Assembly (NCBI GenBank): GCA_903882665.1
Contig: CAIRXW010000023.1
Coordinates: 124,001-188,000 of the forward strand
Reading direction: 5' to 3'
DNA length: 64,000 nt
Source of the DNA: an uncultured Chlorobiaceae bacterium
Lineage (GTDB): Bacteria > Bacteroidota > Chlorobiia > Chlorobiales > Chlorobiaceae
Shown here: piece by piece, positions 32,147 to 39,363 of the stretch
Position numbering within the stretch: the first letter of the stretch is position 1
How the letters are laid out: each line of letters begins with the position of its first letter
The notes under the pieces: generated by a model
Seen by the model: only the letters and a program-made list of their open reading frames with translations
What the model was told of the DNA's origin: nothing
Databases searched by the model: none
Translations under genes and position numbers: made by a program

Positions 32147-33448
32147 TCAGGCTTCGAGACGTTCAAGAAGTTCAAAAAAGTTAGGGAACGAGACGCCGAC
32201 AACATCAACATCTGAAATGTCAATAGGGCACCCTGTCGCCTTGCTCGCAATGGCAAAGCTCATGGCAATCCTGTGATCATCAAAACTCTCAATCACCACC
32301 GTTCCAGACGGAGTTATCCTGCGCCCCTTGACCACAAAACCGTCGGGGTACTGCTCGCAATCAAAACCGAGACGCTGAAGATTGACCACGAGGGCGTCAA
32401 TCCGGTCGCTCTCCTTGGTTCTCAGCTCGGCGGCGTTATGCAACTCAAACTGGCCGGACGCAAAAGCTGAAAGAACGGCAAGCATGGGGATTTCATCAAT
32501 GATAAACGAGACAAGCTGCGGATCCTTGATCACAAGGGGTTCAAGCCCTGTATGGTTATTGACCAGAATATCACCGATAGTTTCACCACCAATCACCCTC
32601 TGGTTTTCAATCGTCAAACCTGCCCCGGCCTCTGTCAGAAGAGCAAGAAATGCGGCTCGTGTCGGGTTGAGGCAGACATCCCTGATGATGATTTCCGAAC
32701 CTCGTGCAAGCAGACCGAGCGCAACAATGAAACAGGCGGCAGATGGATCTGCGGGAATAAAGAAGGGCTTTGCTGCAAGAACCTTTCGGCCCGGCACGAC
32801 GATAACCCGTTCTCCATCGCACTCAATGCTTTCGAGACCGAGCATCACTTCAGTATGGTCACGCGAGAGCACCGGTTCGATAATCCTCGATTCGCCGTCG
32901 GCATGGAGGGCGGCAAAAGCCACCAGTGATTTCACCTGCGCTGAAGGAACCGGCAGACGGTAATTGATCGGCTTCAACTCTCTGGTTCCCTGAATGCGAA
33001 TCGGCGCTGTACCGGACGGCGAAAGCTGAACGTCGACTCCCATCAGGCGCAACGGGTCGGCAACCCTCTTCATTGGCCGCTTCATCAGCGAACTGTCGCC
33101 AATCAACTCACTGGCAAAGGGCTGGGCAGCCAAAATACCGGCAAACATGCGCATGGTACTTCCCGAATTATTACACATCAATGGATCTGAGGGGGGCTGA
33201 AAACTCCATAGTCCCCTTGATTCGATGACCACTCGCCGGATGCGGCGACCGTAGGCTCCATTCACCTCTTCCTGGTGAAGGGTAATACCGGCACTTTTCA
33301 AAACACCGAGGGTCGACTGATTATCAAATCCGGCGGAAAAGTTGGTGATCTCTGTTGTCCCTTCCGACAATGCACCGATAAGCGCCGCACGGTGGGAGAT
33401 CGACTTGTCGGGGGGTAACGCTGTAACTTCACCTTTGAACACTCTCAT
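32147..33448 (-). CDS. aroA: 3-phosphoshikimate 1-carboxyvinyltransferase (EPSP synthase)
   Basis: A 433-residue enzyme that joins shikimate-3-phosphate and phosphoenolpyruvate in the shikimate pathway for aromatic amino acids. The shikimate site [16 protein letters not shown] is at residues 12-27. [17 protein letters not shown] is the NSGTT-like motif, and [28 protein letters not shown] and [15 protein letters not shown] follow. All match the bacterial class. It converges on the hydrolase gene, ending 17 bases from it. Confidence 0.95.
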
Positions 33449-33752: not shown

Positions 33753-34313
33753 TCAACGTCTAAGTTTCATTTTAATAAGATCCGTAACACTTTCTGCATT
33801 TTTTCCATTCGCAGAGTTCATCTGCACATTTTCGAGAAGCTGTTTTCTGCCACTTTTGCAAAATTCCACAATAATGACAAAGGCACCACTTCCTGTCGCC
33901 TGTTTTTCCCTGACCACCCCAACCTCACCAAGCGCCTGATGATAGAGTGCATCACCCTTGGCATAGATACCATGAGGCGAGTAAACCTGGCACTCTTCGG
34001 CTTTCAACTCATCCGGACTGACCTCCCGGTCAATCTGTATTTGCCACTCCTTGAGCAGATAGACCTGATTGCACTCGGCACAACGAACCCAGTACTGGTT
34101 TTCTGCTGCAGGCGGCAATTCACCAGACCCGTTTTTACTGCCTTTTGGCTTTTTGACAACCACCGACGCCAGATAATCATCCTCCCTGGGCTTGTCGCTC
34201 GGCATCCATTCACCGACAAATACCTTCTCTGTAATCTGGCCGCAACCTTCACAGAAGCAAGCCTTGATCTTACCCTCCAAAATGAACTGTCTTTTTCTGG
34301 ACTCTACCTTCAT
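33753..34313 (-). CDS. Conserved hypothetical protein with zinc-ribbon-like cysteines
   Basis: A protein of about 186 residues that I do not recognise. It has a cysteine cluster CFCEGCG near residue 20 and CAEC near residue 81, compatible with one structural zinc site. A middle segment is rich in Lys, Gly and Ser (KKPKGSKNGSGE), and the C-terminal half (VYSPHGIYAKGDALYHQALGEVGVVREK) resembles the short beta modules of CarD-like or KOW domains. I chose ATG 34313; an ATG at 34418 adds 35 less plausible residues. It is followed by rpsU after 24 bases. Confidence 0.65.
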   Translation of the reverse strand: MKVESRKRQFILEGKIKACFCEGCGQITEKVFVGEWMPSDKPREDDYLASVVVKKPKGSKNGSGELPPAAENQYWVRCAECNQVYLLKEWQIQIDREVSPDELKAEECQVYSPHGIYAKGDALYHQALGEVGVVREKQATGSGAFVIIVEFCKSGRKQLLENVQMNSANGKNAESVTDLIKMKLRR

Positions 34314-34497: not shown

Positions 34498-35871
34498 TCA
34501 CTTATGGGTTAACGCATCAATAAGATCTGATTTTGTAAGCAATTGAAGACGTCCATCTGACCGGCTTATCAGCACTCCCGATGCACTTTGCTGCAGTTTA
34601 TCGGATAATTCGGAAATCGTTGCATCGAGCCGACAGACAGGAAACGGCTGCTCCATAAAGCCGACAACCTTTGCGTTCATCGCATCGTCGTTTTCAATAA
34701 GAATAGAGAGAATCTTGTTTTCACTGATACTGCCAATCGGAGCATTATAGGAGACAATCGGAAGCTGGGATACATCGTTCTGCTTCATCATCTCAAACAC
34801 TTCAGCAAGCGTATTTTCAGGATAGGCGAAAATAAGATCCCTGCGCGCTTTCAATTGAAGGATATCCTCGGCCGTGATCTGCTCAAGGGCTGATTTCGCC
34901 TTGCGGTAAAAGCCACGTTTGCGCATCCACTCATCATGGAACATCTTGCTCAAATAATAACCGCCAAAATCGTTCATCACCACCACCACACAATCATCCT
35001 CTCGATATGCCGCACCGGCCCGAAGCGCCGCTGCCATTGCCGCACCCGAAGCTCCACCGGCAAAAACAGCTTCCATCCGCAAAAGCTCCCTTCCGCAGTT
35101 GAAGGCGTCATAATCACTTACCTGTACCACATCATCAAGAAGCGATGAATCCCAAAAAGCGGAGGGCTGACTGGAACCGATCTCCTCAAGCTCGGAAAAT
35201 GCCGGTTTTCCAGGCACTCCATCCCTGAAGAGCCCCGCATAGATTGAGCCCTGCGATTCAACACCGATAATCTGAATTGCAGGGTTCTTTGCTTTCAAAA
35301 AAGTGGCGATACCAAAAACCATAGCCCCGGAGATCATCGGCACAAAAACATGGGTAACCTGTCCCTCCGTCTGGCGAAAAATCTCACTGCCGGTAGCGTC
35401 ACAATGAACCTTGAGGCTGAGAGGATTGGCATACATGCCGGCAAAAAAGGCGTTAGGAATACTCCGAACCAGACTTTCAGCCACATTCATGCAACTGCGC
35501 GGCTCTCCGGGCAAGGCATCCGAAGGGGTAATCACCAGTTCCGCACCGAGAGCGCGAAGCATATCCTGCTTCTCCCGCGATATTTTATCAGGAGCGGCCA
35601 GCAGCAACTTGTAGCCACGGCTCACACCGGCCATGGCGAGGGCAATTCCGCTGTTGCCAAAAGTCCAGTCCACAAGCGTCATTCCCGGATGAATCAGCTT
35701 GCGCTCTTCAGCATCTTTGACAATGGCAGAGGCAACACGGTAGTAGTGCGACCAGGCCGGATTCATGTACTCAAGTTTGGCCATAACCTTTGGCCTGATT
35801 TGGCGAGCCATCTGTTGTACAGGAACCATCGGCGTTTCTGCGGCAAGACCGAATATATCGTGGTTCGACAT
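34498..35871 (-). CDS. Cystathionine-beta-synthase-like protein with CBS pair, lacking the PLP lysine
   Basis: A 457-residue protein. Residues 1-330 have the fold-type II PLP-enzyme sequence of cysteine synthase/CBS, and the last about 110 residues form two CBS domains (LIFAYPENTLAEVFEMMKQNDVSQLPIV and the following repeat). The motif that should read S-x-K-D-R is SHYYR (residues 41-45), so the Schiff-base lysine is Tyr43. GNTG is replaced by GNSG, and the glycine-rich phosphate loop by MISGAMVFGI. It cannot bind PLP in the usual way and may be a regulatory or structural homolog. The start at 35871 is inferred from homology. Confidence 0.85.
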   Translation of the reverse strand: MSNHDIFGLAAETPMVPVQQMARQIRPKVMAKLEYMNPAWSHYYRVASAIVKDAEERKLIHPGMTLVDWTFGNSGIALAMAGVSRGYKLLLAAPDKISREKQDMLRALGAELVITPSDALPGEPRSCMNVAESLVRSIPNAFFAGMYANPLSLKVHCDATGSEIFRQTEGQVTHVFVPMISGAMVFGIATFLKAKNPAIQIIGVESQGSIYAGLFRDGVPGKPAFSELEEIGSSQPSAFWDSSLLDDVVQVSDYDAFNCGRELLRMEAVFAGGASGAAMAAALRAGAAYREDDCVVVVMNDFGGYYLSKMFHDEWMRKRGFYRKAKSALEQITAEDILQLKARRDLIFAYPENTLAEVFEMMKQNDVSQLPIVSYNAPIGSISENKILSILIENDDAMNAKVVGFMEQPFPVCRLDATISELSDKLQQSASGVLISRSDGRLQLLTKSDLIDALTHK

Positions 35872-38847: not shown

Positions 38848-39102
38848 TCAATGGGGCACAGTCACTGAAGAACAGGATATTTGCTCCCTCAGAAACTCAG
38901 GCGCAAAATCAGCTCCATTGCTCCAGCTCAAGGTGTGGCCTTCGAGAGTGAAGGAGCTGAAAAACTCCTTGTCTTTGAGTGGTTCAAACAGTTCGCCATA
39001 CAGCTCGGAAAAGAGATCAATCTCCCCTTCCGCGCCGTCATTGAACGCAACCCATACCTTGTAATCACCGCAATATCTGGCTTGTGTAACGTGCATAAAC
39101 AT
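38848..39102 (-). CDS. DUF2442 domain protein
   Basis: An 84-residue protein of the DUF2442 family: HVTQARYCGDYKVWVAFNDGAEGEIDLFSEL, then FFSSFTLEGHTLSWSNGADFAPEFL, the diagnostic W-NG-D-APE ending. DUF2442 and DUF4160 genes commonly occur as adjacent pairs in mobile and accessory regions, often suspected to be toxin-antitoxin-like, but the biochemistry is not known. It follows the DUF4160 gene by three bases. Confidence 0.85.
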   Translation of the reverse strand: MFMHVTQARYCGDYKVWVAFNDGAEGEIDLFSELYGELFEPLKDKEFFSSFTLEGHTLSWSNGADFAPEFLREQISCSSVTVPH

Positions 39103-39105
39103 GGC

Positions 39106-39363
39106 TTACTCCAGTGGCTTAATTTTCGATAGTGGCTTTCTGTTCATTGCTGCTTCCCAATTTACCATAAGCTCCTGCTGATGAAGAGTATACCACTCAA
39201 GCACAGCACTCAATGCTCTTCTTGGAAACCTGCCGTTTACCACCCCGGTTTCAATATCCACAGAAATTTCATATTCGCCATATTCAGCATGAAAATGTGG
39301 CGGAGTATGTTCCCGAATATACATCCGTATCACTATCCCAAGAAAGCGGCTGATTTCAGGCAT
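39106..39363 (-). CDS. DUF4160 domain protein
   Basis: An 85-residue protein with the DUF4160 signature: PEISRFLGIVIRMYIREHTPPHFHAEYGEYE (HxPPHFHA), an acidic strand, FPRRALSAVLEWYTLHQQELM and a basic tail. It is the upstream partner of the DUF2442 gene, three bases apart, forming a two-gene operon. Function is unknown; the pair is a frequent accessory module. It is inserted between the PilM-like gene and a remnant of that gene. Confidence 0.85.
   Translation of the reverse strand: MPEISRFLGIVIRMYIREHTPPHFHAEYGEYEISVDIETGVVNGRFPRRALSAVLEWYTLHQQELMVNWEAAMNRKPLSKIKPLE

Follow-up and report, generated by a model that had tools for sequence, protein, structure and literature searches.

In Rv1077, a Bateman-type cystathionine beta-synthase of M. 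tuberculosis, and in human CBS, a CBS pair lies C-terminal to a fold-type II core, and both proteins can be aligned nearly end to end with the protein described here, which is encoded in a 64-kb stretch of DNA (the window) from an uncultured member of the Chlorobiaceae. The Chlorobiaceae protein differs from these enzymes in that the PLP lysine, the phosphate loop and the pyridine serine are missing, and in that its core evolves faster than its CBS pair. The C. elegans protein CYSL-1 is a cysteine synthase-like signalling protein and offers a parallel for a cysteine-synthase fold serving in signalling, but it is eukaryotic. In plants, TSB-like, which has the same fold type, is catalytically dead and has become an allosteric partner that activates tryptophan synthase alpha (PMC12727527). 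It shares the PLP fold type with the Chlorobiaceae protein and, like the latter in our reading, is catalytically dead and kept for a regulatory role; it differs in being a paralogue beside an active copy, with the substitutions E190A and D386E, no CBS pair and a known partner, TSA (PMC12727527), whereas the Chlorobiaceae protein is an orthologue and carries a CBS pair. Among open-licence papers, we found none on a CBS pseudoenzyme or on the Chlorobium gene.

Architecture and descent of the protein

The minus-strand open reading frame encodes 457 aa and is free of internal stops (Table 1). Pfam identified a PALP domain at residues 10-299 (197 bits) and a single CBS domain at residues 342-392 (CBS1), and the second repeat, CBS2, which has no Pfam call, was placed at approximately residues 412-454 from the predicted secondary structure and from the alignment with Rv1077, the best solved relative by sequence, which extends from residue 8 to 452. 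The protein thus contains the two tandem CBS repeats that characterize a Bateman protein. The top NCBIfam match was TIGR01137, with 328 bits, below the equivalog cut-off of 510. The protein is homologous to cystathionine beta-synthase over its full length and orthologous to it, and is therefore a CBS by descent. An AlphaFold2 model was obtained from a shallow alignment (mean pLDDT 71, pTM 0.66, CBS pair at low confidence), and pocket geometry was not taken from it; in this model, human CBS is the top predicted fold match of the full-length protein, and the modelled core matches Capnocytophaga CapA1 and Legionella CBS (target TM 0.88 and 0.90, rmsd 1.9 and 2.2, respectively).

Table 1. Features of the CBS-like gene and its surroundings, in positions of the window
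Feature	Positions	Strand	Basis
CDS, lysine-less cystathionine beta-synthase homologue, 457 aa	34498..35871	-	ORF, Pfam, alignment to Rv1077
Former catalytic core, residues 1-320, PALP fold	34912..35871	-	Pfam PALP 10-299; fold match to CBS cores; accelerated in Chlorobiaceae
SHYYR, residues 41-45, replacing S-x-K-D-R; PLP lysine replaced by Tyr43 (codon 35743-35745)	35737..35751	-	Alignment, orthologue comparison
TFGNSG, residues 70-75, replacing substrate/PLP loop T[SA]GNTG; Asn73 is N/T/S/D among orthologues	35647..35664	-	Orthologue comparison
ISGAM, residues 180-184, replacing phosphate loop GTGGT	35320..35334	-	Orthologue comparison
GGASG, residues 272-276; residue 274 Ala for canonical Ser	35044..35058	-	Orthologue comparison
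CBS pair (Bateman module), residues 339-457; best-conserved part in Chlorobiaceae	34501..34857	-	Pfam, secondary structure, identity, tree lengths
TKSD, residues 446-449, equivalent by alignment to human SAM-site T535/D538	34525..34536	-	T 54/57, D 57/57; PMC9232105
Conserved neighbour, 186 aa, weak zinc-ribbon match; likewise adjacent to the canonical CBS gene of sister families	33753..34313	-	Synteny, class-wide search
aroA (EPSP synthase), syntenic marker and rate yardstick	32147..33448	-	Synteny, tree lengths

Loss of the PLP lysine and of other catalytic residues

The SSKDR motif of Rv1077 is aligned with SHYYR of the Chlorobiaceae protein, and the alignment columns bear out the original prediction that SHYYR stands in place of S-x-K-D-R. 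We compared 57 distinct full-length sequences from Chlorobiaceae: Tyr occupies position 43 in 55 of them, Asp and Ser in one each, and Lys in none, and at the PLP position of canonical relatives we found Lys in 28/28 sequences, a residue-level sample drawn from the same, single phylum, so that independent losses elsewhere are possible. The motif itself varies among the orthologues (SHYCR, SPYYR, SPYCR, SNYYR, SDYYR, SHYGR, SHDYR and SHSYR), many of which come from metagenome-assembled genomes, the single SHDYR and SHSYR variants among them. The constant feature across Chlorobiaceae is the missing lysine: where conservation of SHYYR had been anticipated, the loss of the lysine under purifying selection extends to 57/57 sequences, but SHYYR is not invariant. 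A sequencing error or a single-strain oddity is ruled out, because the lysine is missing in all sampled Chlorobiaceae.

A peptide-pattern scan with one genome per species returned 58 loci, every one of them in Chlorobiaceae or in records named Chlorobiota or Chlorobiales, and a class-wide search recovered the protein in most Chlorobiaceae genomes, in both genera. The genomes of the family without a copy likely reflect assembly gaps, as suggested by the concomitant absence of the neighbouring gene at 33753-34313 and by partial copies (G007, G076 and G079) that break off at contig ends. In two genomes from another family of the order (G086 and G087), the neighbouring gene is present and CBS matches are found only at the level of cysteine synthases. 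Additionally, one Chlorobiaceae bin (G065) contains an extra full-length CBS homologue (L115, 2995-4335; 29% identity) with a canonical SIKDR motif, representing either an acquisition or contamination.

The glycine-rich phosphate loop was also correctly described as altered: GTGGT is absent in Chlorobiaceae, and ISGAM and its variants occupy these columns, through replacement of Gly180 by I/V/A/G/S, Thr181 by Ser, Gly183 by Ala and Thr184 by Met. Residue 274, a serine in canonical enzymes that contacts the PLP pyridine nitrogen, is Ala in 55/57 Chlorobiaceae sequences, and further pocket changes affect Asp44 (Tyr/Cys/Gly), Gln146 (Met) and Gly230 (Glu/Asp). The earlier view of an intact scaffold and CBS pair accordingly stands for the fold, which is kept with no stop, but not for the catalytic pocket, which is degraded at many positions.

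Among the 57 sequences, no new conserved lysine was found in the core; canonical enzymes already have Lys, or Lys/Arg, at the positions of the conserved core lysines 32, 88, 101 and 193, which rules out that another lysine has taken over. With no conserved lysine gained nearby and catalytic residues lost clade-wide, the assignment as a pseudoenzyme was upheld. In Rv1077, the K44A substitution abolished the 412 nm PLP peak (PMC9232105). Judging from the sequence comparisons, it is close to certain that PLP Schiff-base chemistry has been lost, with no internal aldimine, and the protein probably does not bind PLP.

In-place origin and inverted constraint

Two sister families within the order provided 10 genomes with canonical orthologues (L105-L114) of 43-47% identity to the Chlorobiaceae protein, which differ from it in keeping S[IV]KDR (SIKDR or SVKDR), GTGGT and GGSSG and in having the core as the slower part. 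Of these 10 loci, eight have the neighbouring gene after the CBS gene and six have aroA after it, in the same order as in Chlorobiaceae; the stretches compared were of unequal length, and L110 and L113 showed neither. In the tree, sequences of Chlorobiaceae and of the sister families group in a single clade (support 100), apart from 18 further sequences from the phylum, which are all canonical. This single clade and the gene order shared with canonical sister families indicate that the enzyme was disabled in place on the Chlorobiaceae stem, and not in a duplicate copy. The neighbouring gene itself is conserved across the class, including in two genomes without the CBS gene. Elsewhere in the window, at 38848-39363 on the minus strand, two small ORFs of 84 and 85 aa resemble a DUF2442/DUF4160 pair; the flanking genes, hyp_37741 and asd, are nearly adjacent in some relatives, so the ORF pair looks like a variable insertion.

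The gene is maintained under purifying selection, as had been proposed: the frame is open, and pairwise dN/dS within Chlorobiaceae has a median of 0.088 in the core (561 pairs) and of 0.042 in the CBS pair (532 pairs), values (0.04-0.09) that, with the open frame, rule out a pseudogene. In the sister clade, the medians are 0.057 for the core and 0.073 for the CBS pair, from just 6 and 5 qualifying pairs, respectively. Mean within-group identity of the core and the CBS pair is 0.748 and 0.887 in Chlorobiaceae, 0.774 and 0.653 in the sister clade, and 0.632 and 0.347 in the outgroup. On a fixed topology, the core tree has 3.24 times the length of the CBS-pair tree in Chlorobiaceae and 0.53 times its length in the sister clade; the core has a stem branch of 1.06 versus 0.06. 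Against the yardstick of aroA from the same loci, for which the Chlorobiaceae tree is 1.91 times as long as the sister tree, the corresponding values of 8.15 for the core and 1.11 for the CBS pair show that the main shift is an approximately fourfold acceleration of the core relative to aroA, with the CBS pair somewhat slowed. Constraint is thus inverted, canonical CBS conserving the core and Chlorobiaceae the CBS pair, a result that goes beyond the original prediction.

Ligand site, sulfur metabolism and possible function

In human CBS, SAM is bound through F443, Q445, T535 and D538, and in Rv1077, the SAM residues E390, S411, D432 and W433 were proposed and mutation-tested (PMC9232105). Matched by eye, the equivalents of the human residues are F410 (57/57), V412, T446 (54/57) and D449 (57/57), so that three of the four are kept and Q445 is replaced by Val, whereas the Rv1077 residues correspond to K386, E407, S429 and A430 and hence are not kept. 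This pattern would fit an adenosyl or adenylate ligand, of unspecified identity, in a human-type site.

The genome encodes two canonical CysK proteins and a canonical CysE, so that cysteine synthesis from sulfide is independent of the CBS-like protein, as well as an S-adenosylhomocysteinase. In C47, a PF01053 Cys/Met-metabolism PLP enzyme is followed by cysK and then by cysE, whose product ends in isoleucine, together with a second PF01053 enzyme (gene names by inspection). The two CysK proteins (L143, 4.8-9.0 kb region; L144, 5258-6211) are closely similar and lie in different contexts, one adjoining cysE and the two PF01053 genes and the other beside crp-like/encapsulin-like and SufS-like genes (names by inspection). 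Life in sulfide-rich settings may have made reverse transsulfuration dispensable.

From these comparisons, the protein is very probably no longer an enzyme and would instead be a regulator or a scaffold. With constraint inverted in favour of the CBS pair, the sensor, regulator or partner role originally envisaged appears more likely. We favour, with some confidence, a PLP-free pseudoenzyme in which the CBS pair provides the selected, ligand-sensing function, the old core serves as a scaffold, and a partner, possibly in cysteine/methionine metabolism, is probably regulated. Sequence comparison shows that the protein is the in-place orthologue of a Bateman-type CBS that abandoned PLP chemistry on the Chlorobiaceae stem. 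The gene would have been kept for its C-terminal CBS pair, in which, by homology, the region around F410, T446 and D449 probably accommodates SAM, AMP or ATP as an adenosyl ligand. The old catalytic core could act as a dimerisation scaffold and docking surface, and ligand binding might alter the oligomeric state or an exposed surface and thereby control a partner, the likeliest candidates being CysK, CysE or other enzymes that make cysteine or methionine. Only tentatively do we extend this to the proposal that, across the whole family and without gene duplication, a Bateman-type CBS became an allosteric regulator that is free of PLP, senses an adenosyl ligand and acts on sulfur amino-acid synthesis. 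Counting against the favoured reading, the Rv1077 SAM residues and human Q445 are not retained, and no sulfur-metabolism gene adjoins the CBS-like gene. A search for a riboswitch near the gene yielded zero Rfam matches anywhere in the window.

Alternatively, the core itself might form complexes with CysK, CysE or another enzyme, activating or inhibiting it, while the CBS pair merely tunes or fixes the oligomer. Such a dead subunit has a same-fold precedent in plant TSB-like with tryptophan synthase alpha (PMC12727527), and it agrees with the presence of canonical CysK and CysE and with the behaviour of Rv1077, in which dimers form through the core and the tetramer through the CBS pair (PMC9232105). 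However, the core evolves faster, unlike what would be expected of a main docking surface, which makes this alternative rather unlikely. The loop for the substrate carboxylate, which in CysK also holds the CysE tail, is altered as well.

The sensing role of the CBS pair that we favour also has to accommodate the finding, which counts against it, that the old pocket is slightly better conserved than the remaining core (entropy 0.525 versus 0.724); relative to the remaining core, pocket entropy rose from 0.41 to 0.73. This lower entropy and the invariance of W69, S74, S181, W240 and F302 in Chlorobiaceae suggest that the pocket may still be doing something. It could have been rebuilt as a PLP-free active site or as a site for another small molecule, as fixed, non-drifting substitutions (D68, S74, A77, S181, E205, L214, W240 and F302) would suggest, but the lysine position is variable (Y/D/S), as are positions 71, 73 and 180, and the whole core is accelerated, the constrained part being the CBS pair, so we give a rebuilt pocket little credence. 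Binding of PLP without a Schiff base, by a PLP sensor or carrier, would draw on the preserved fold and on Asn73 and the loop glycines, present in most sequences; with the GTGGT loop and the pyridine serine gone and Asn73 not fixed, it is highly improbable. That the protein is an active cystathionine beta-synthase using a different lysine is scarcely credible, despite its full-length homology to active enzymes, given that none of the four conserved core lysines is new and the other PLP contacts are degraded.

Annotation by simple homology would call the gene a cystathionine beta-synthase in all green sulfur bacteria, crediting these organisms with a reverse-transsulfuration step of which the protein is very probably incapable. 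Should the regulatory reading be true, the Chlorobiaceae protein would be a case in which the CBS regulatory module has been naturally uncoupled from its enzyme. It would then offer a simple system in which to study the function of a CBS pair with no catalysis left to regulate and the conversion of an enzyme into a regulator without duplication.
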